Virus record (IMG/VR): IMGVR_UViG_3300045007_000460
Span: 1 to 21,015 of that record
Direction: 5' to 3' (one strand)
Source of the DNA: a virus
DNA length: 21,015 nucleotides
The notes under the pieces are model-generated. The model had not been told where the DNA came from and did no database searches. It saw only the letters and a list, made by a program, of their open reading frames with translations. This document shows positions 182 through 16,100 of the stretch, piece by piece. Within the stretch, counting starts at the first letter, position 1. Each line of letters opens with the position of its first letter. Made by a program: the position numbers and the translations under genes.

Positions 182-2305
182 GTGGTAAGTATTCCAGCTC
201 AGGAGAGTTCCTTGGATATTCCTACTACAACCAAAATAACTACAGAAGTCCATTGTTGTCGCTGTGGGTTACTTTTAGAAAAACACATCAGCAGAACAGC
301 CGGAATTGGGCCTATTTGTGCTGAAAGGCTGGGAATTTGCCAAGAAGCCCTAGTCCAATTAAATTGGGAACTTAATCCGAATAAGGTAGCCGCCACCAAA
401 GACGATGGTGAATTGGTTCTTACTTTTATTTCCGAGAAATCCGAAATTTGCCTTTCTTTTCGCTACAAAAAAGAAATAGTTGAAACTGTAAGAAAAATAC
501 CAGGAAGACGATATGAACCACATAGCAGAAAGTGGTTTATTCCTGCCTCAAAAGAAAATGTCGAACTTCTTCTTGTGCTTCCTGAAACACGAATATTCGT
601 AGGGCACCTAGCCCACTTTCAAACTTTACTAAAATCGCCCCACTCTGGACGTCTCAGCAATCCTGAGGGGGGATTTAGGGGTTACCCAGAGGAAAACTCC
701 AACAAAGCCGGTTTAATACAAGGACAAATAGCACTAAATTTTCCTTATGACCAAAACCTGATTATGAAAATAAGGCAGATTCCTGGTAGAAAATGGGATT
801 CTGCTAGGAAGATGTGGTTTGCTCCTGTAAGTTATGATGCTATCCAAATACTGAAAGAACTAAATTTCCAATTTGGGAAAGAATTGCAAAAGAAAGAAGA
901 AGAATTAAAACCCAAAATTATAAAAGAAATAGAATTGCCCTCTGGATTAGAACTCTTCCCTTTTCAAAAAATGGGAGTAGAATTTATCGAATCCAGAGGA
1001 GGAAGAGCTTTACTAGCAGATCAAATGGGCTGTGGGAAAACTTTGCAAGCCATAGGTTGGTTGCGAATTCATCCAGAACTACGACCCGCTATCATAATTG
1101 TCCCTTCCAGCGTCAAAATTAATTGGGAACGTGAAATCCACAAGTGGATCCCAAAGCAAAAAACCATTATTTTACAAGGTCGGGACTCCACTCTTCCTTT
1201 GCCCACAGATATCAACAATAGAATGATTATCATAAACTATGATATTGTAAAAGACTGGAAAACTCGTTTAAAGCAAATAAATGCAAAGGTCCTGATTGCT
1301 GATGAATCTCAGATGATAAAGTCTCGTGGCGCTAAGCGTACCAAAGCTACAATGTCCTTAGCTAAAGTCATTCCTCACATAATTTGCCTAAGTGGGACCC
1401 CCATCATGAACAGACCCATCGAATTTTACAACACCTTGTACATGATAAATCCGGCATTATTCCCAAGTTGGTGGGGATTCGCCACACGTTATTGCGGGCT
1501 AAAGAAAACCTTTTGGGGCACAAACGTGTCTGGGGCAACAAACATAGAAGAATTACACCAAAAATTGACAGAAACGGTGATGTTGAGAAGACTAAAACAA
1601 GATGTTCTTCCAGAATTGCCAGAAAAAATAAGAAGTGTTGTGCCCATAGAAATTACGAACCAAACAGAATACTGCCAAGCAGAATCTGATTTCATTTTGT
1701 GGCTCAGGAAAAAAGAAGGGAGACTTGCTGCTGAAAAAGCAGAAAGGGCCGAAGCCATAACTAGAATAACCTACTTAAAAACACTAGCAGCCAGGGGGAA
1801 AATAGAAACAGCTTTGTCTTGGGTACAAGACTGCATAGAAACCAATAACAAAATAATTGTTTTTGCTGTTCACCATGAAATTATAGATTCAGTTACGAAA
1901 AAATTTCCAGAAGTTTCTGTGAAACTTACAGGCAGTGAAAATTTAGAACAAAGACAAAAAGCCATAGACACCTTTCAAAATGATCCAAATTGCAAAATCT
2001 TTGTGGGTCAGCTGCAGGCAGCAGGGATAGGAATCACCCTGACCGCTGCTAGCCATGTAGTTTTTTTAGAATGTGGGTGGAAACCCTCTGAACACGACCA
2101 AGCAGAGGACCGTGCTCATCGCATAGGGCAAAAAAGTTGTGTCAATATTTACTATTTAGTTGCAGAAAATACAATAGAGGAGGAAATTATCAAGCTTATT
2201 GACCAAAAGAGAGAAATACTACAAAGAATACTTGATGGAACAACCCCAGAAACTGAAAGTATTCTAACAGAACTACTAAACAAATACAAAATAGGAGAAG
2301 AATAA
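182..2305 (+). CDS. SNF2-family helicase (SMARCAL1/HARP-like) with N-terminal zinc finger
   Basis: This 707-residue protein is a DNA-dependent ATPase of the SNF2 superfamily 2 type, likely acting in remodelling or fork repair of the element's DNA. In order: a zinc finger like that of DUF6011 proteins (Cys25/26, Cys28, then GIGPIC with Cys46); two HARP-like modules at about 77-135 and 177-225, each with an IPGR(R/K) and a (K)WF/MWF signature; a linker at 142-165; then the motor. Motor motifs seen are ADQMGCGKT (about 279-288), the DES-type motif II IADES (about 373), SGTP (about 403) and the C-lobe motif AEDRAHRIGQ (about 641-650). The GTG start at 182 is required to keep the zinc finger but lacks a good ribosome binding site. 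Residues 142-165 are encoded exactly by one copy of a 72-bp inverted repeat. The stop overlaps the next start (TAATG). Confidence 0.93.
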   Translation: MVSIPAQESSLDIPTTTKITTEVHCCRCGLLLEKHISRTAGIGPICAERLGICQEALVQLNWELNPNKVAATKDDGELVLTFISEKSEICLSFRYKKEIVETVRKIPGRRYEPHSRKWFIPASKENVELLLVLPETRIFVGHLAHFQTLLKSPHSGRLSNPEGGFRGYPEENSNKAGLIQGQIALNFPYDQNLIMKIRQIPGRKWDSARKMWFAPVSYDAIQILKELNFQFGKELQKKEEELKPKIIKEIELPSGLELFPFQKMGVEFIESRGGRALLADQMGCGKTLQAIGWLRIHPELRPAIIIVPSSVKINWEREIHKWIPKQKTIILQGRDSTLPLPTDINNRMIIINYDIVKDWKTRLKQINAKVLIADESQMIKSRGAKRTKATMSLAKVIPHIICLSGTPIMNRPIEFYNTLYMINPALFPSWWGFATRYCGLKKTFWGTNVSGATNIEELHQKLTETVMLRRLKQDVLPELPEKIRSVVPIEITNQTEYCQAESDFILWLRKKEGRLAAEKAERAEAITRITYLKTLAARGKIETALSWVQDCIETNNKIIVFAVHHEIIDSVTKKFPEVSVKLTGSENLEQRQKAIDTFQNDPNCKIFVGQLQAAGIGITLTAASHVVFLECGWKPSEHDQAEDRAHRIGQKSCVNIYYLVAENTIEEEIIKLIDQKREILQRILDGTTPETESILTELLNKYKIGEE
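605..676 (+). repeat. 72-bp perfect inverted repeat, copy 1 (in frame inside SNF2 gene)
   Basis: Bases 605-676 are the exact reverse complement of 16029-16100, 72 of 72 positions; identity stops sharply on both sides. The left edge (CACCTAGCCC) falls on a codon boundary and the element supplies exactly 24 codons, HLAHFQ at the start and NPEGGF at the end, placed in the linker between the two HARP-like modules. It contains a small internal hairpin, CTCAG-CAATC-CTGAG (653-667). No transposase is nearby and no target-site duplication is evident. Confidence 0.95.
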
Positions 2306-2696: not shown

Positions 2697-3020
2697 GTGG
2701 GAGAAGAATTCAAAAACTCCTTTTCCATAGGTTTGCTCCTCTTTCTGCTTATTCCCCTTTTGCCCTGGGTTGTAATTTGTATTTTTATATATTACGCGGT
2801 AAAAGTCCTCATGGAAGCTGCAGAAAAGTCGGGAGAAAAAAACCCATCAGGAGAAGAGACAGCAGAAGTTTCTGAAAGAGACTATCATGACGCTGTGGCT
2901 GCCTTAAGCAAATTAGGCTTCACTAAGGCAGAAGCAAGAGAAGCTGTTCAAAAAGCCATGGAACAAGGAGCAATAAAAATTGAAGATTTATTAAAGAAAG
3001 CTATTCAAAGTAGGGGATAA
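2697..3020 (+). CDS. Membrane-anchored protein with RuvA-C/UBA-like domain
   Basis: This 107-residue protein starts at GTG 2697, with AGGAG at 2686-2690 giving ideal spacing. Residues about 10-38 are a long hydrophobic stretch (one or two membrane passes, around LLPWVVICIF), followed by a charged linker. The tail, about 62-101, reads DYHDAVAALSKLGFTKAEA and REAVQKAM. This is the three-helix pattern of RuvA domain III and related UBA-like folds: DAVxAL, LG(F/Y), AEAxxAV. In RuvA this domain contacts the RuvB motor. Here it would face the cytoplasm and could tether a partner protein to the membrane. The fold call rests on motif reading; the partner is unknown. The next gene starts 3 bases after the stop. 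Confidence 0.75.
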   Translation: MGEEFKNSFSIGLLLFLLIPLLPWVVICIFIYYAVKVLMEAAEKSGEKNPSGEETAEVSERDYHDAVAALSKLGFTKAEAREAVQKAMEQGAIKIEDLLKKAIQSRG

Positions 3021-5888: not shown

Positions 5889-6147
5889 AGGGCGACAAAA
5901 AATGATATTAAAGGTATTATGCTTCACAACAGTTCTTTTATGCAATACTTCTTTTGCTCAAACCAAACCCCAAGAGAACTATACCATTTATGGTCGTGGT
6001 TATCAAGTGGAGGGATATGTTAAAGATGGAGTTATTTATGATAAGGGGTATCGCGTAAAAGGCTATTACAAAGAAGACAATCGTGGGCAAGGAACTATCT
6101 ACGACAGAAAATATGAACCTAAAGGCTACTATAAAAGGAACAAATAA
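5878..6147 (+). CDS. Secreted protein of three IYD-GY repeats
   Basis: From ATG 5878 (89 residues) the protein has a basic N-region, a hydrophobic core LKVLCFTTVLLC and a likely signal-peptidase site after NTSFA, so it should be exported. ATG 5902 is an equally possible start. The mature part is three copies of a tyrosine-rich unit of the form IY(G/D)xxYxxxGYxK: IYGRGYQVEGYVK, IYDKGYRVKGYYK, IYDRKYEPKGYYK. Such repeats occur in small periplasmic or secreted proteins of Gram-negative bacteria and probably form beta hairpins; the function is unknown. It overlaps the preceding gene by 11 bases. An exported protein among replication genes suggests an accessory cargo gene. Confidence 0.75.
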   Translation: MVRKGRQKMILKVLCFTTVLLCNTSFAQTKPQENYTIYGRGYQVEGYVKDGVIYDKGYRVKGYYKEDNRGQGTIYDRKYEPKGYYKRNK

Positions 6148-6366
6148 ATGGATGCACGTGGTTACTATGAAGTAGAACTATCAGAATTAATTGAATTCTG
6201 TGGTGGTCGGGGCAAAATTTTTGCTCAAAAGAACCCCCGCAGTTTCATGGTGAAGAAACACCAAGAATTTATTGATTCCTTGTTTGACAAGGGATATGAT
6301 GAAATTGGGGAATTGCACATGCAGTCTATCGATGATTATGTTGACTGGGGTGGGCAATGGACCTAA
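6148..6366 (+). CDS. Hypothetical protein, 72 aa
   Basis: ATG 6148 directly follows the previous stop, with AAAGGA upstream. The product is acidic and rich in aromatic residues (MDARGYYEVELSELIEFCGG ... DDYVDWGGQWT). No motif or family is recognised. It overlaps the next gene by 10 bases, consistent with an operon. Confidence 0.6.
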   Translation: MDARGYYEVELSELIEFCGGRGKIFAQKNPRSFMVKKHQEFIDSLFDKGYDEIGELHMQSIDDYVDWGGQWT

Positions 6367-7184
6367 AGGATTGGAGATCCTTTAATTTGTATAGGAGGTA
6401 TGGCCAGACTGAAGCTGTCAGCAAGAAGTATTTTAAATACGAGGGGAAGTCAGGCCGTACCTGGCTGGTAGCCGATCAGCCGAATGCTGCCGATAACATT
6501 TATTGCTCCAACCCTGGGAACGGTCCTGGTAACGGGTTTGGGGGAGCAAAACTGTCTTTGGCCCTCGTCGAGGGAGGATTCTTTGTTCTTAATGGGGGCT
6601 GGCACTCAAACAGTGATTCGCTATTTAGGGATACTGGCATCGACTTGAGGAGTAAACATCTGACCCAAGTAGTTGTGGGCAGAAACCGCACCACCAACAG
6701 CAATCACGAAACAATTATCACAGACGTTCTGTACTGGGAGAAGGAACCGCTGGTGGGTTCGTTTTATAGATACAAGGAGATCTGCGATCAAGTTATACAG
6801 GAATACAACTTGGATAACCTTGTATACTATATGGAAAGCCAGGACGGTTCGTCTTGTGGGTGGTACAAGAGTTGGAAGCCCGGAGATGCAAACGCGCCTG
6901 GTCCAGTAGAACTGGTGTCGGAAGCAGAGACTATCGCCCTTCACAGCCCAGAGCCTGCAGCTCCCGCAGCTAGAGTAGACCTGATTCCATCGGAGAAGAC
7001 TGAGGAGATTGATTTGCTGCTCTCCAATATGACCGGCAGGAGTCGTAGACACACTATTGCCTCTGGGCTCTGTATGTGCTGTGGGTTGCCAGTAGGAGTA
7101 TTTCGTGATGCTTTGTCTGTAAAGGAGTACACCATTTCCGGCTACTGCCAAGGGTGTCAAGATGCTGTATTTACCTCCGTATAA
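6357..7184 (+). CDS. Hypothetical protein with C-terminal C4 zinc finger
   Basis: A 275-residue protein with a novel-looking N-terminal two thirds (Gly/Asn-rich stretch NPGNGPGNGFGG at about 53-64, then FFVLNGGWHSNSDSLF) and an Ala/Pro linker near 198-205. The C-terminus is a four-cysteine finger, CMCCG ... SGYCQGCQDAVF, a pattern seen at the ends of various phage proteins and likely zinc-binding. The base composition is clearly GC-richer than in the flanking genes, suggesting a separate origin. The opposite strand also has a long open frame here, but it has no ribosome binding site or recognisable content. Confidence 0.65.
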   Translation: MDLKDWRSFNLYRRYGQTEAVSKKYFKYEGKSGRTWLVADQPNAADNIYCSNPGNGPGNGFGGAKLSLALVEGGFFVLNGGWHSNSDSLFRDTGIDLRSKHLTQVVVGRNRTTNSNHETIITDVLYWEKEPLVGSFYRYKEICDQVIQEYNLDNLVYYMESQDGSSCGWYKSWKPGDANAPGPVELVSEAETIALHSPEPAAPAARVDLIPSEKTEEIDLLLSNMTGRSRRHTIASGLCMCCGLPVGVFRDALSVKEYTISGYCQGCQDAVFTSV

Positions 7185-7218
7185 ACAAGGCAGGAAAAGT
7201 AAGCTAAGGAGAACCAAA

Positions 7219-7407
7219 ATGTGCAGAGAACCGAGAAACAATATGAAGAAGTGGACAGTTTTCATGCTTACGCCATACGCAGAGTGGGAGGGCGTAGAAG
7301 GGGCAACAGCGAAGGAAGCCATTGCCAAGTGTGATGCACCAGAGTTTGACCTAAACGACGGCCCTATTCACTTCGTAGCGGTAGAGGAAGAACCCGATGA
7401 ACACTAA
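7219..7407 (+). CDS. Small acidic hypothetical protein, 62 aa
   Basis: ATG 7219 has AAGGAG at 7206-7211, spaced 7 bases; it is preferred over any start further upstream. The protein reads WTVFMLTPYAEWEGVEGATA then KEAIAKCDAPEF, a beta-strand/helix pattern (strand, VEG-AxxxxEAIAKC, strand) like many small phage proteins with a DUF1024- or 'VEVEA..EAI'-type layout. The function is unknown. Confidence 0.6.
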   Translation: MCREPRNNMKKWTVFMLTPYAEWEGVEGATAKEAIAKCDAPEFDLNDGPIHFVAVEEEPDEH

Positions 7408-7432
7408 CTATGTGCTATCACCTATCAGTTCG

Positions 7433-7444
7433 CATATTAATATG
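7433..7444. promoter_or_regulatory. 12-bp perfect palindrome before the 7460 gene
   Basis: CATATTAATATG is perfectly palindromic and lies immediately before the AAAGGAG site of the 7460 gene. It could be an operator for a dimeric repressor or a chance AT-rich palindrome. Confidence 0.25.
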
Positions 7445-7459
7445 AAAGGAGATAAATAG

Positions 7460-8794
7460 ATGAAAGAATGGATTCCCATTTCAGAAGCCGTAAAAGAATT
7501 GGGGGAAGACCCCTCCACCATTTTCCTCCCAAAATTGGGGAAACAACTGAACCAAGCAAAACCAGGAACAACCAAACTACTCTACGTCCTTGTAGGGAAA
7601 AAACAAACAACCCTTTCCCACATACATAGGAAAGACCTTCCCCTGTTAAAACAAATTTTACACGGAGAAAAAGTTCAAAAAGTCGATGAGCATCGGCCCA
7701 ACATTATACCCATCTACCTCGCAACCAAGAACCTCGGATATGAACTAACAGATGGACAACTAAAAATAATAGGCAGAATGTTAAACAAAAGAGGATATGA
7801 AACATTCAGAAAGTATGATACCAAAAGTAAAATTGCCAGGGCTTCTATAGACGTAGACCTTGTTCCTTCCAAAGTCCTACTTGAATGCATAAAGGAATTG
7901 CCCTGGTTAAATGTGCCCCCTTCTATAGGATTTACTCCTACTCCAAAAAGGGCTCCTACTCCAAAAAGGGAAGAAGAAATCCCAGAAGAAGTGAAAATTC
8001 TCCCTGTATCCGAAGTGAGGAAAGTTGAAGAAGAAAAACCTAAAAGTTTGTACCCCATAGTTGAAACCTTTCTTTCCCAACTGGAGAATTATTTGCGCCC
8101 AGACCTAGCACCTATACTAAAAGAAATCAAAGAAATAAAGGAAGAAATTCAAGAGATAAAAGAAAAGTCTCCTATTACTACATTTCAACCACAAATCCCC
8201 ACAGACATTTCACATGAACAACTAAATAAAACCATTTCTGCTATGCGGGAAGAAATAGAATTAGAAAAAGATAGGGAAATTTCTATCCTACAGGAAAAAT
8301 TGGAATTAGAAAAAGAAAAGGAAATCTATGTTCCTGCTCCCCCCCAAGAAGCTAACCCCAAAACAATGGCGAGTTACATAGAAGCTCTGTCGGCTTTTGG
8401 AGAACCAACAAAACTGTCACAGTTTATGACAGCAGCAGAATCTTTAAAAACATTCCAACCAACAGAAAGTTCTGAAGAATTCCCTTCTCACATGGTTTGG
8501 TATGGCAGGGAATGGTTTTCAATCGAGCGTTCAATTTGGTTCCAAAAAGATTTTGCAGAACTTGATATTGGACAGAAAAGAGCAGTCTTGCACATGCTTT
8601 TGCTTATGTCCAATAATCCTTATCACAAATCGCTGAATACCCATAAACCTGCTTCTCTACATTATTATCCCTCGGGAACCCCAGTCCAGGCCTGCTTATA
8701 TAGCAGGGCTTCAAGCAACATAAGAGTATTTTGGGACTATAATAACGACGAAAAGAAAATAAATTTCCATAGGATTATAGTTAAAGCCGGGTGA
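7460..8794 (+). CDS. Coiled-coil protein with RelE/ParE-like C-terminal domain
   Basis: This is a 444-residue protein. The N-terminal 150 residues hold two helical segments (WIPISEAVKELG; YLATKNLGYELTDGQLKIIG) that may be duplicated HTH-like units. A Pro/Lys linker with a tandem APTPKR repeat follows (about 155-165), then a charged coiled coil at about 215-295 (LKEIKEIKEEIQEIKEK). The last 100 residues read like the RelE/ParE toxin fold: WFQKDFAELDIGQKRAVL, NNPYHKSLNTHKP, then SSNIRVFWDY and INFHRI. That is the usual F-x-KDF, NPxHxSLN, RV-x-W/F-Y, I-x-F order. No separate antitoxin gene is evident. The domain may be a repurposed toxin fold or an active nuclease. AAAGGAG precedes ATG 7460. Confidence 0.65.
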   Translation: MKEWIPISEAVKELGEDPSTIFLPKLGKQLNQAKPGTTKLLYVLVGKKQTTLSHIHRKDLPLLKQILHGEKVQKVDEHRPNIIPIYLATKNLGYELTDGQLKIIGRMLNKRGYETFRKYDTKSKIARASIDVDLVPSKVLLECIKELPWLNVPPSIGFTPTPKRAPTPKREEEIPEEVKILPVSEVRKVEEEKPKSLYPIVETFLSQLENYLRPDLAPILKEIKEIKEEIQEIKEKSPITTFQPQIPTDISHEQLNKTISAMREEIELEKDREISILQEKLELEKEKEIYVPAPPQEANPKTMASYIEALSAFGEPTKLSQFMTAAESLKTFQPTESSEEFPSHMVWYGREWFSIERSIWFQKDFAELDIGQKRAVLHMLLLMSNNPYHKSLNTHKPASLHYYPSGTPVQACLYSRASSNIRVFWDYNNDEKKINFHRIIVKAG

Positions 8795-8842
8795 TACCCG
8801 GCCTCCTGAACACTCCCCCCATAAGGAAACTTGAGGGGGGAG
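8786..8842 (+). terminator. Two hairpins at the end of the 7460 gene
   Basis: The first is GCCGGGT-GAT-ACCCGGC (8786-8802), a perfect 7-bp stem that covers the stop codon. The second is CTCCCCCC (8813-8820) with GGGGGGAG (8835-8842), a perfect 8-bp stem with a 14-base loop. Neither has a T tract, so a classic intrinsic terminator is not shown; they could act as mRNA end-stabilising or weak termination structures. Confidence 0.4.
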
Positions 8843-8881
8843 GATTGAGGAGTCTAATTTTGGAAAGGAGGTTCTGCGAAA

Positions 8882-9118
8882 ATGGCGGTAAAACTGGAAT
8901 TGGTTAACATCCCGGAAGGTAGAGTCCGCCCGGTAGAGGATTACTCCTGTATCCCTTCCAAAGCAGTTGCCTATAATTACATCCAGGCGACTTACGACAC
9001 TTTGCGAGGGCATCCAGCAGGCACAGACCAGGACGAAGAAATAGCAGTGTATCGTAATGGTTATTGGACTACACCTGACGGCGAGCAATGGACTGACTTC
9101 ATAGTCAGTATGTACTGA
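8882..9118 (+). CDS. Hypothetical protein, 78 aa
   Basis: ATG 8882 follows AAAGGAGG at 8864-8871, a near-perfect site. The protein begins MAVKLELVNIPEGRVRPVED and ends WTTPDGEQWTDFIVSMY. It is acidic and soluble, with no recognised family. It starts a run of small GC-richer genes that continues to 10345. Confidence 0.6.
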   Translation: MAVKLELVNIPEGRVRPVEDYSCIPSKAVAYNYIQATYDTLRGHPAGTDQDEEIAVYRNGYWTTPDGEQWTDFIVSMY

Positions 9119-9148
9119 GAAAAACTACGTTTGAAAACGGAGAATACA

Positions 9149-9337
9149 ATGCCACGTTATCGAGTAACTCTACATCACCAGTATTATGTTAAAGAAGTGG
9201 TGGAAGTTGAGGCCAGCAATGAAATTGACGCTGACATCACAGCCAATGATTGCGGAGAAGGAGAATCTATCGAGAAAAGCGATCTTATTGCTGGAGATAC
9301 TCAGACCTGGGCAATAGAGAAGGTCAAGGATGCCTGA
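9149..9337 (+). CDS. Hypothetical protein, 62 aa
   Basis: ATG 9149 is chosen because GGAG lies 6 bases upstream; a TTG 18 bases earlier is in frame but less likely. The product reads PRYRVTLHHQYYVKEVVEVE then ASNEIDADITAND. This is a beta-strand pair and an acidic helix, the layout of small phage proteins with a 'VEVEA' strand. The function is unknown. Confidence 0.6.
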   Translation: MPRYRVTLHHQYYVKEVVEVEASNEIDADITANDCGEGESIEKSDLIAGDTQTWAIEKVKDA

Positions 9338-9371
9338 TTTGCTGCAGAACCAACTACAGACGTTCTAATAG

Positions 9372-9393
9372 TTTGTGTGGCTGAATACACAAA
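9372..9393 (+). promoter_or_regulatory. Hairpin directly before the ribosome binding site of the 9407 gene
   Basis: TTTGTGT (9372-9378) and ACACAAA (9387-9393) form a perfect 7-bp stem with an 8-base loop. Its 3' arm ends 1 base before AGGAGG (9395-9400). It could tune access to the site or be the 3' hairpin of the preceding transcript. Confidence 0.35.
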
Positions 9394-9406
9394 TAGGAGG
9401 TAATAC

Positions 9407-9742
9407 ATGGAAAAGCCAGAAGGTTATACTATTGAGCAGCCCACCAAGTGGCGTAAAGGGACAGCCCTTACTGCCCACAAAATCTACGCACGCGACGGCG
9501 TAGGTTGGTGGACACCTATTTGCGTTCCCAAGTTGCACACAGGGATAGTAGCAGGAGTCGCAAGGGTTCACCACCTCATGACCCACTCATGTTGGCGTAA
9601 AGAGAACTACAACAAACCTGTGCGGTGTATCATTACTACAACTGACTACCAAATGTGGTATGGCGTACACCTGCCCGGTGAGTGTCCGGCGTTACACTAC
9701 AAGTCGCGGCCCAAGGAAGAAGCCACAAATGGAACTAGTTGA
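9407..9742 (+). CDS. Hypothetical protein, 111 aa
   Basis: ATG 9407 follows AGGAGG with 6-base spacing. The protein begins MEKPEGYTIEQPTKWRKG and contains WWTPICVPKLHTG and several His and Cys residues (HHLMTHSCW, CIIT, GECPALH). No family is recognised. Its end overlaps the next start by 14 bases. Confidence 0.6.
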   Translation: MEKPEGYTIEQPTKWRKGTALTAHKIYARDGVGWWTPICVPKLHTGIVAGVARVHHLMTHSCWRKENYNKPVRCIITTTDYQMWYGVHLPGECPALHYKSRPKEEATNGTS

Positions 9743-9878
9743 CTCATATCACTACGTTTCCCTCGCTGACAAACTGCGTGAGGTGGGCATCCCAACAAAG
9801 GTAAAAAAATACCTTGGCCAAACACTACCTTCATCATTGTACTTCTCATCGTGTCCTGGGCCGCATAGTACAGGATAA
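9729..9878 (+). CDS. Small protein with possible -1 frameshift into a membrane segment
   Basis: ATG 9729 has AAGGAAG upstream. The zero frame gives 49 residues (MELVDSYHYVSLADKLREVG, then IPTKVKK and an unremarkable tail) ending at 9878. An A7 run at 9803-9809 sits as A-AAA-AAA in the zero frame. A -1 slip there joins residue 27 to IPWPNTTFIIVLLIVSWAA, ending at TAG 9866-9868, a 46-residue product with a convincing C-terminal transmembrane segment. Either programmed frameshifting or a homopolymer length error could explain it. The ~95 bases after the gene hold no clear feature. Confidence 0.45.
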   Translation: MELVDSYHYVSLADKLREVGIPTKVKKYLGQTLPSSLYFSSCPGPHSTG

Positions 9879-9973
9879 GTGGCTTACAACATTGCCCATA
9901 CGTCCAGACAAGGGTGCGAACACGCCACTCCGGACGACGAAGCCTGACACCCCCTACACGGAAAAGGAACAAA

Positions 9974-10345
9974 ATGAAGCCGAAAAGAATAAGTAAGAAA
10001 GAGCATGAAGCTGTACGGGAAGCACTAAAGTTGCACGCCCAAAAGTTGGCCGATCATTCAGAATCCCCTGCAAGCTACTTTTCATGCCGCAACGCACCAT
10101 GTTGCTATATTGAGAAGCTACCAGCGAAGCTACCAGCACACTTTCACATCTACCCTCTTTCCACTACTGACACAGAGCACTTCATGTCCGTCAACTGTAG
10201 TTGCGAAGAGGCCGTTCGCGCACACGGAGATGTAATCTGTGTTGCTACGCATTGGCTATCTGGCAGATATCCACGCTACTACTTGCACACACACCCCATT
10301 GGCAAGTGTCCGTGGAAAACTCCCATAATTCAGATTCTTTATTGA
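9974..10345 (+). CDS. Cys/His-rich hypothetical protein, 123 aa
   Basis: ATG 9974 is chosen over a start 60 bases upstream because AAAAGGA precedes it with good spacing. The N-terminus is basic (MKPKRISKKEHEAVREALK) and helical. The rest contains CRNAPCC, NCSCEEA, VICVATHW and KCPWK, plus several His, suggesting metal binding without matching a known finger. It is the last gene before the 286-base noncoding stretch. Confidence 0.6.
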   Translation: MKPKRISKKEHEAVREALKLHAQKLADHSESPASYFSCRNAPCCYIEKLPAKLPAHFHIYPLSTTDTEHFMSVNCSCEEAVRAHGDVICVATHWLSGRYPRYYLHTHPIGKCPWKTPIIQILY

Positions 10346-10360
10346 AAGCGGCTTTTTTTC

Positions 10361-10386
10361 TTGAAATTAAAATTTTAGGCTATAAT
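10361..10386 (+). promoter_or_regulatory. Possible sigma70-type promoter
   Basis: A perfect TATAAT stands at 10381-10386. TTGAAA at 10361-10366 would give only a 14-base spacer; TTCTTG at 10358-10363 gives 17 bases but is a weaker match. The predicted start near 10392-10394 is just upstream of the structured region, which would fit a promoter for it. Confidence 0.35.
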
Positions 10387-10392
10387 TAATAG

Positions 10393-10570
10393 TGAGTGCC
10401 ACAGGAGGAATTCTGTGGCTCCATTCAATTCCCTTGGCAGGGGTGAAGATGCTCGTCTTGTTTCTGTGGTTGGTAAATTCTCCTGTGGCGGGTGACTATT
10501 ACCTCACTCTCGTAGTCCCTCTATGAGACCACACAAGTGACGCTTCACTCCTGTCAGGGGAATTATTCTT
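10393..10570 (+). ncRNA. Structured RNA candidate (22-bp helix and junction)
   Basis: Bases 10427-10448 pair with 10543-10564 over 22 uninterrupted positions, 19 Watson-Crick and 3 G-U; the only deviations are wobbles, which favours selection as RNA. Inside are CGT/ACG, CTTG/CAAG (10457-10460 with 10534-10537), TGTGGT/ACCACA (10465-10470 with 10528-10533) and two arms: GGTAA/TTACC (10472-10503) and CTCGTAG/CTATGAG (10509-10527). Upstream is a hairpin GCCACAG/CTGTGGC (10398-10419). An alternative 10-bp pairing, 10398-10407 with 10480-10489, would disrupt these, so the RNA may switch. No coding potential is seen. It may be a leader of the 10632 gene or a free RNA; no known class is recognised. 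Confidence 0.6.
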
Positions 10571-10631: not shown

Positions 10632-11321
10632 GTGGACAACATCAAAAAAGAATGTGAGAAATACCTTAAAGCACCTAGAAGAATACCAGGAAAATTCCTC
10701 CAACTAAAGAGATACCAAGAAAAAGACAAAAATGATAATCCTATAGGTCCAAAGATTTTTATCTCAAGTGTGGATAAATTTCTACTATCCTATATTCAAG
10801 ACCTTCCCTTTACCCCCTCTAATCAAAGATTAGCTCTTATGGTTGGGTGCGGGCAAACAAAGCAAAGTATTGGTCAACATCTCTTAAAACTTAAAAACTG
10901 GGGCATCATAGAAGACAATGGAAAATATGGAATCAACAGGAAAATAAATATTCTAAAACTACCCCCTCCCCCTGAAGGGTGCATAACAAAGGGCATAACT
11001 ATTCCCCCAGAAGTAATCAAAGAATTCAAATCCTGCTCCCAACGGCTAGTTGCCGCAGCAGAAATTAGTTTTCCTGAGAAAAATCAAATTTGGAAAGCCT
11101 GGAAGATCGGAATGTCCCTATCTTCTTATAAATACAATTTTGTAAAATGTGAAGAAAAACTAGAAAAAATAAAGGCAAGGTTAAACAGAGAAAAGATTAG
11201 GTTAACTGATATAAAAAAGCTGTTTAACCGCAAAAATTTGGACAAGGAAATTGTCAAGGATTTGGACAAGGAAATTGTTAGGTTAACTCATATAAAAAAC
11301 TGTTTAACCTTGATGAGTTAA
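10632..11321 (+). CDS. Winged-helix replication-initiator-like protein
   Basis: A 229-residue basic protein starting at GTG 10632. An N-terminal winged-helix-like region at about 45-105 reads SVDKFLLSYIQDLPFTPSNQ, then LALMVGCGQTKQSIGQHLLK and LKNWGIIEDNGKYGI. This resembles the N-domain of phage replication O proteins and DnaD-type helix-turn-helix units. The last 45 residues contain DLDKEIV repeats because iterons are embedded in the coding sequence (11237-11278). With further copies just downstream, the protein is best seen as the initiator that binds these iterons. The iteron core TGGACAA also occurs at the start codon (10633-10639), which could allow autoregulation. Direct proof of binding is lacking. 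Confidence 0.65.
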   Translation: MDNIKKECEKYLKAPRRIPGKFLQLKRYQEKDKNDNPIGPKIFISSVDKFLLSYIQDLPFTPSNQRLALMVGCGQTKQSIGQHLLKLKNWGIIEDNGKYGINRKINILKLPPPPEGCITKGITIPPEVIKEFKSCSQRLVAAAEISFPEKNQIWKAWKIGMSLSSYKYNFVKCEEKLEKIKARLNREKIRLTDIKKLFNRKNLDKEIVKDLDKEIVRLTHIKNCLTLMS

Positions 11322-11404
11322 CCGCACAAAAAGGCGAAAAATTTTTGGACAAGGAAATAGTCACTTTTGGACAAGGAATAAGCGGTATTTGGACAAGGAA
11401 ATAC
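11179..11404 (+). repeat. Iteron cluster, probable replication origin core
   Basis: Two repeat families interleave. Family 1, TTTGGACAAGGAAAT or one-base variants, starts at 11237, 11261, 11344, 11366 and 11388, with steps of 24, 83, 22 and 22 bases, about two helical turns. Family 2 is GGTTAA or its complement at 11179, 11200, 11224, 11281, 11304 and 11318. The block TAGGTTAACT..TTTAACC recurs at 11198-11229 and 11279-11309, about 80 bases apart, so the unit looks tandemly duplicated. GGTTAACTCAT (11281-11291) and ATGAGTTAACC (11313-11323) form an 11-bp perfect dyad over the stop of the initiator-like gene. Confidence 0.75.
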
Positions 11405-11647
11405 ATTATTACTTCTAGAGTAAAAAAGTAAAGAGTAAAGAGTAGTTTTATCTTCGATAAAACTATCAAGCGTCTGAAGATTGCGATTGCAATCTTCAAG
11501 ACGCGGGAAAGCTGCTAATTTTTTCTTAATTTTGACTGATAGTTTTAACATCATTTTGGAGCTAGATTTCTTGAGGTTAAAATCTTTGAAGTTGACACCA
11601 AACACCCATTTGAACCCATCAAAAATGACAGCTAGGGGATTATCACT
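11405..11647. other. Noncoding origin flank with large dyads and AT-rich DNA
   Basis: No gene is seen here. AGTTTTATC (11444-11452) and GATAAAACT (11456-11464) form a 9-bp stem with a 3-base loop. GCGTCT+GAAGATTGC (11470-11484) pairs with GCAATCTTC+A+AGACGC (11489-11504), a 15-bp stem with one bulged A. AAAACTATCA (11459-11468) and TGATAGTTTT (11537-11546) are inverted repeats enclosing that hairpin. A GAGTAAA direct repeat lies at 11428-11443, and AT-rich runs at about 11505-11590 could be the unwinding element. Confidence 0.6.
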
Positions 11648-15217: not shown

Positions 15218-16051
15218 ATGAAGGTTGGGATGATCTTACCTGTCTATAGAGATGACAGGCATTATTGGTATAAAAACTTTGTAAAAAAGATGATTCCCTC
15301 CCTTTTTTACTTGAGGAATACTCCAATAAAATTTCTTATCAATTTTCAGAGGTTTGGACAAAGTCAAGTAGATCAATTGATAGCCAATATGGCTTTATCT
15401 TATGGCTCTTCTTTTCAATACGGACATATAATTAATTACTACGAACCTCCAGTATCCATGTCGAAGATACGTGAAGACACAGCACAAATAGATCCAACTT
15501 GTGATATTTACATTTGTGCTGATGACGATATGGTATTTGGTAGAAATGCTTCACGTAGATACAACGAAATAATCAAGTATATGGAAGAAACCCCAAAATG
15601 TGGCGTAGTCATGGCTTTAGGTTATTATGGGGGGAACCACACCAAAGAGAAAATAATTGACACTTACGAAATGATATGGCAGACAGCCAGAGGACTTTTC
15701 TTAAGAAATGTAGGAGATCCAGGCTGGGTGTTTGTTCCCCCCGATTCTTGGGAATGTGTTGGAGGGCTAGAGGATGCTTATGCTGTATATTCTAGATTTG
15801 CTTTGGGGTATACTGGAGCTAAAACCTTTTGCCTGGACATTATCTCCCATGGAGGAAAAAGCGACCACAGATTTGAAGTAGCTAATCGGAAAAGGGGGCG
15901 GTATCCAATAGATACAGATATACACAACCCTAAGTTCGATTGCATAACAAAGTTGATTCGCCAAAAGTGGGAAGACCCGGATTGGCTTTTATGGAGAAAA
16001 CGATTACCCAAGGGACTAGCTAGCCTCCAAATCCCCCCTCAGGATTGCTGA
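15218..16051 (+). CDS. GT-A glycosyltransferase-like protein
   Basis: The 277-residue protein starts with the strand MKVGMILPVYRD, typical of family-2-like glycosyltransferases, and has a DxD metal/nucleotide-sugar motif in YICADDDMVF (D102-D104 region). SMSKIRE before it and WECVGGLEDAYAVYSRFALG then HGGKSDHRF after it fit acceptor-side elements. The sugar and acceptor are unknown; phage enzymes of this kind can modify DNA bases or host surface sugars. There is no good ribosome binding site at ATG 15218. The last eight codons (LQIPPQDC and stop) lie inside a 72-bp inverted-repeat copy, so the native C-terminus may have been replaced. Confidence 0.75.
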   Translation: MKVGMILPVYRDDRHYWYKNFVKKMIPSLFYLRNTPIKFLINFQRFGQSQVDQLIANMALSYGSSFQYGHIINYYEPPVSMSKIREDTAQIDPTCDIYICADDDMVFGRNASRRYNEIIKYMEETPKCGVVMALGYYGGNHTKEKIIDTYEMIWQTARGLFLRNVGDPGWVFVPPDSWECVGGLEDAYAVYSRFALGYTGAKTFCLDIISHGGKSDHRFEVANRKRGRYPIDTDIHNPKFDCITKLIRQKWEDPDWLLWRKRLPKGLASLQIPPQDC

Positions 16052-16100
16052 GACGTCCAGAGTGGGGCGATTTTAGTAAAGTTTGAAAGTGGGCTAGGTG
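16029..16100 (-). repeat. 72-bp perfect inverted repeat, copy 2 (end of glycosyltransferase gene)
   Basis: Exact reverse complement of 605-676. The copy begins in codon 271 of the glycosyltransferase gene and supplies its last codons and stop; the remaining 49 bases are noncoding. In this orientation CTCAG-GATTG-CTGAG (16038-16052) forms a hairpin over the stop codon. Confidence 0.95.

Follow-up and report, generated by a model that had tools for sequence, protein, structure and literature searches.

An exact 72-bp inverted repeat in a viral DNA fragment, read in frame in an SNF2-family helicase gene and lying over the end of a second gene

Introduction

Template switch, templated insertion and conversion-like repair are established mechanisms in recombining phages. 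A templated insertion or template-switch duplication reproduces a distant segment exactly over a short length and has no consistent target duplication. Another kind of repeat is found in the PeSL cassettes of T4-type phages, which are repeated dyads located at gene borders and carrying an early promoter.

Several families of small dispersed elements have been described. The Rickettsia palindromic elements (RPEs) are about 150 bp long and form ten families, with 44 insertions in one genome; in each RPE, a conserved peptide is encoded by an ORF (PMC10969869). The mycobacteriophage mobile elements (MPMEs) are about 440 bp long, with inverted repeats and an ORF of 123 residues, and the 17-bp repeats of cluster O mycobacteriophages are strict dyads with more than 30 occurrences, both between and inside genes (PMC4351075).

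Here, we describe an inverted repeat of 72 bp in a stretch of viral DNA of 21,015 bases (the window). The window is a full IMG/VR record, listed without completeness, and we take it as a fragment on the basis of its replication-type genes, which are accompanied by no recognised structural genes. Like the RPEs, the repeat is short and is read in frame at a tolerant site in a protein-coding gene (PMC10969869). Unlike them, it measures 72 bp, occurs in two copies in a 21-kb fragment, forms an ordinary hairpin and belongs to no family that we could find. It is not filed here as an RPE, because it has no strong palindrome or hairpin such as those of the RPEs and only two copies were seen.

The comparison with phage elements is similar. 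The MPMEs are also very small and dispersed in phage genomes, but the present repeat has neither their size nor their inverted repeats or ORF. The cluster O repeats and the PeSL cassettes are likewise repeated sequences of phage genomes; unlike these, the 72-bp repeat has no promoter, no strict dyad and no high copy number. With templated insertions and template-switch duplications it shares the form of a short exact distant copy, for which an inverted orientation is possible, although for the phage repeat the mechanism is one that we infer.

Results

The inverted repeat

The coordinates of the repeat and of its surroundings are given in table 1. The two copies are reverse complements of each other at 72/72 positions, exactly as the original prediction had claimed, and the ends of this identity are abrupt. 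The GC content of the repeat is 50%, against 39% for the whole record. A repeat search calls longer arms of 85 nt (605-689 and 16016-16100), which are 94% complementary: the 13 bases beyond the 72-bp repeat at one end are identical at 8/13 positions. This level is reached by about 0.5% of random pairs, for a length picked post hoc, and the weak extension would be consistent with a tract that was longer and has decayed at this end, or with an element of more than 72 bp.

Table 1. Features of the 72-bp inverted repeat and of its host genes in the window.
Feature	Coordinates	Strand	Remarks
Copy 1 of the 72-bp repeat	605..676	+	in-frame residues 142-165 of the SNF2-family helicase
Copy 2, exact reverse complement	16029..16100	-	last residues and stop of ORF 15218-16051, 3' spacer
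Possible imperfect extension beside copy 1	677..689	+	8/13 identical
Partner of the possible extension, beside copy 2	16016..16028	-	
AGGG abutting the left end of copy 1	601..604	+	chance or target-site-duplication look-alike
AGGG abutting the right end of copy 1	677..680	+	chance or target-site-duplication look-alike
Host gene of copy 1	182..2305	+	DUF6011, two HARP-like modules, SNF2 helicase
Host gene of copy 2	15218..16051	+	possible GT-A-like protein; resembles Rhizobium phage hypothetical proteins

Given the base composition of the window, 8.6e-35 inverted exact matches of at least 72 nt are expected by chance, and the longest chance match of this kind is about 14 nt. The 72-bp pair is the only exact repeat of at least 25 nt in the window. 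The comparators, 450 kb of phage and viral DNA mostly cut to pieces of similar size, gave no exact inverted repeat of at least 25 nt; their direct repeats of this length are tandem or local for the most part, and a few are spaced by 0.5-2.3 kb. In view of the chance expectation of about 1e-34 and of the lack of inverted repeats of this length in the comparators, the pair is considered real in the sequence and unusual.

Two other compositional features were observed in the record. A 24-bp unit occurs three times (two of them in tandem) at 11231-11361, where ORF 10632-11321 ends and immediately beyond. The regions 6000-7500 and 8500-10500 are patches of 45-48% GC, compared with the 39% of the record, with many short ORFs; they are possible imported modules.

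For a window that is an IMG/VR record, a repeat of this kind could in principle be an artefact of assembly or amplification, in which two molecules or strains would have been misjoined via a common 72-bp segment. We regard this as unlikely. As the repeat borders on four different flanks, the sampled DNA must contain it at least twice, and 72 is, to our knowledge, not a usual assembler word length. Furthermore, both host genes look whole, the tandem order of the HARP modules is found in another phage helicase, and the protein encoded at 15218-16051 terminates at about the same place as its homologue.

Copy 1 and the linker of the SNF2 helicase

Copy 1 begins at a codon boundary of its host ORF, contains no stop in the host frame and encodes the residues HLAHFQTLLKSPHSGRLSNPEGGF. 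The 24 in-frame codons that had been predicted between two HARP-like modules are present as described, and their location in a linker is supported by the predicted structure of the helicase, a rough guide only (predicted without alignment; mean pLDDT 54), in which residues 142-165 form the linker of lowest confidence and are flanked by two similar strand-helix modules.

Counted between the last tryptophan of module 1 and the FPY of module 2, the linker measures 67 aa, or 43 aa when the repeat is subtracted. The equivalent HARP-HARP linker in Arthrobacter phage Ottawa has 46 aa, a comparison with one homologue lineage of about 26-29% identity; apart from it, no phage helicase lineage with tandem HARP modules was found. 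As judged from these lengths, insertion into the copy 1 site may be weakly favoured. The score of the alignment with the Ottawa protein shows no gain when residues 142-165 are deleted (146 versus 148), and reaches 161 when a block of 24 aa is deleted from after residue 157; the exact deletion brings no gain because the linker is unalignable at this divergence. In the alignment of SNF2 homologues, suggested as a check of the insertion, the linker length (43 versus 46 aa) is compatible with it.

Among phages, tandem HARP-like modules were seen in Ottawa and Kharcho only, and the helicase encoded at 182-2305 has DUF6011 together with two such modules. About 300 genomes of one phylum were also searched for proteins with tandem HARP modules and gave zero matches above the cut-off. 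The region 2697-3020 encodes a small protein with a membrane-like N-terminal stretch and a RuvA C-terminal-like domain.

Copy 2 and the end of ORF 15218-16051

Copy 2 starts at base 2 of codon 271 and provides part of residue 271, the residues up to 277 and the stop codon. The gene had been named a glycosyltransferase with copy 2 as its end. The second part of this description stands, with the last seven residues, the stop and the 3' spacer all contained in the copy; the name is unsupported by Pfam, PHROGs and PDB sequences. The sole relatives found are phage proteins annotated as hypothetical. The protein contains a DDD motif, CADDDMVFG, which presumably fits a GT-A type enzyme.

When the protein is aligned globally with one of a Rhizobium phage, similarity extends through DPDW..KRLPKGLASLQ / DPTW..KRMPKKLNNLK, after which it is lost at copy 2. 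Since the similarity to this homologue stops where copy 2 starts, copy 2 is read as the natural tail of the gene together with its spacer. Both this site and the linker of the helicase are of a kind where an insert harms little.

The state of the two host genes bears on a further suggestion of the original prediction, that the copies are a recombination site able to invert 15.4 kb, considered here as a pair of sites that would act as a switch. The 72 bp of perfect inverted identity are compatible with this, and such a length of perfect identity suffices for general recombination. However, inversion would leave a helicase of just 167 aa and replace the end of the other gene, and about 15 kb of co-directional genes would be turned head-on to the rest; no recombinase was recognised among the window proteins scanned. 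A switch is contradicted by this gene orientation and by the breakage of both genes, and because inverting the 15.4 kb destroys both of them we hold it to be extremely improbable.

Search for other copies and relatives

No third copy of the repeat, intact or diverged, was found in the 21-kb record: the best other local alignment scores 23, and shuffled repeats reach 25. BLAST searches of annotated phages and plasmids with the repeat gave zero relatives. Exact 16-25-mer seeds gave no relative in IMG/VR, and one exact 21-mer gave zero matches in 85,000 prokaryote genomes of GTDB, both being searches that diverged relatives would escape. The 16-mer matches obtained in IMG/VR were rejected as relatives, their similarity stopping within 16-20 nt, and were judged to be due to chance. 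The absence of a known family with this sequence, assumed at the outset, holds for the searches of phages, plasmids, IMG/VR (exact seeds) and GTDB (one 21-mer). Other genes of the window gave no close relative among the matches listed, and none of the matches listed was a relative with an empty site for either copy. A tRNA scan detected none.

Folding, flanks and codon statistics

The hairpin of the repeat is mediocre (z about -1.8), being within the best 2-4% of 85-nt windows, and the 72-nt windows of the repeat rank in the best 3-10% of the record. With their full native flanks, copies 1 and 2 adopt different folds; the gain in folding due to these flanks is matched by 8% of random flanks for copy 1 and by 2-3% for copy 2, and the outer pairing at copy 1 is not above chance. 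An outer stem, considered as the mark of a longer structured element, was not relied on, as random flanks match it and the folds differ.

Stronger structures are found elsewhere in the record. A double hairpin at 8770-8880, after the end of ORF 7460-8794, has a folding energy of -50.2 kcal/mol (z -4.8) and exceeds anything in the 72-bp repeat. A hairpin with a 15-pair arm is located in a spacer between ORFs at 11420-11530 (-35.9 kcal/mol, z -5.6).

A terminator-like stem-loop, CGTCCAGAGTGGGGCG followed by ATTTTAG, is scored in each copy, and copy 2 lies in a 3' spacer. Both observations would agree with a functional DNA or RNA site present twice, for example a bidirectional terminator, a protein-binding site or a replication signal, a reading that we nevertheless find quite improbable. 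The stem has five pairs and the T tract is short, and the record contains 39 such matches versus 19 in shuffles; in copy 1 the stem-loop lies inside an open gene and is oriented against transcription. Rfam contains no match for the repeat, and no diverged copies are present in the other spacers of the record.

The only direct repeat flush with the ends is the AGGG at copy 1, and there is none at copy 2. As a target duplication, it would imply an insert of 76 bp, which breaks the frame. A MITE or another derivative of an insertion sequence was considered and rejected, as terminal inverted repeats with a target-site duplication are not seen at each copy.

The codon score of the repeat is 2.0, which among true coding windows is the 16th percentile; at least this score is reached by 48% of open wrong-frame windows. 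Codon statistics are indecisive both on a coding or non-coding origin of the repeat and on which copy is donor and which recipient.

Discussion

We give about an even chance to our preferred explanation, in which about 72 bp were copied recently, and once only, to an ectopic site of the same phage genome in inverted orientation. Priming would have taken place on the opposite strand, at a distance of 15 kb, from a 3' end located at a break or a stalled fork; about 72 nt would have been copied before the strand returned, producing a second, inverted copy in the form of a templated insertion or a conversion-like patch. The copy would have been kept where one side is a disordered linker, with 24 codons open by chance, and the other comprises the last residues and the 3' spacer of another gene; the duplicate presumably survived owing to the tolerance of both sites. 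With no additional assumption, one ectopic copying event of recent date would account for an identity that is exact and ends abruptly, for the absence of relatives in the searches and for the tolerant nature of both locations.

We infer how the copying proceeded and that it was one event of recent date, and we lean slightly towards the helicase as the recipient. The gene-conversion tract of the original prediction is retained here as a conversion-like or templated copy, by a putative mechanism. What speaks against a one-off copy is the rarity of such accidents, as the 450 kb of comparators had no dispersed inverted repeat of similar length.

The principal competitor is a small passive element that would enter tolerant linkers and gene ends in frame, in the manner of the RPEs. 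Because the record is a 21-kb fragment, an element of which just two copies are visible is possible, and the open host frame and linker position of copy 1, the GC content above that of the record, the possible further homology over 13 bp at one end and the AGGG on either side of copy 1 are all consistent with it. We consider it somewhat unlikely, however, given that no relative was found in the collections searched, that the hairpin is ordinary and the copies fold differently with their native flanks, and that the AGGG duplication would entail a frameshift and has no counterpart at copy 2. There is a small chance that the repeat is the first representative of a phage-borne family of very small passive elements inserting in frame into protein linkers, with the remaining members outside the fragment.

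If the repeat results from a single copying accident, as we prefer, it offers a clean snapshot of how unrelated DNA can lengthen a phage protein by 24 residues in a single step. If the complete genome contains more copies, the repeat would be the equivalent, in a phage, of the Rickettsia elements, and the in-frame growth of proteins by passive elements would become testable in a fast-growing system.
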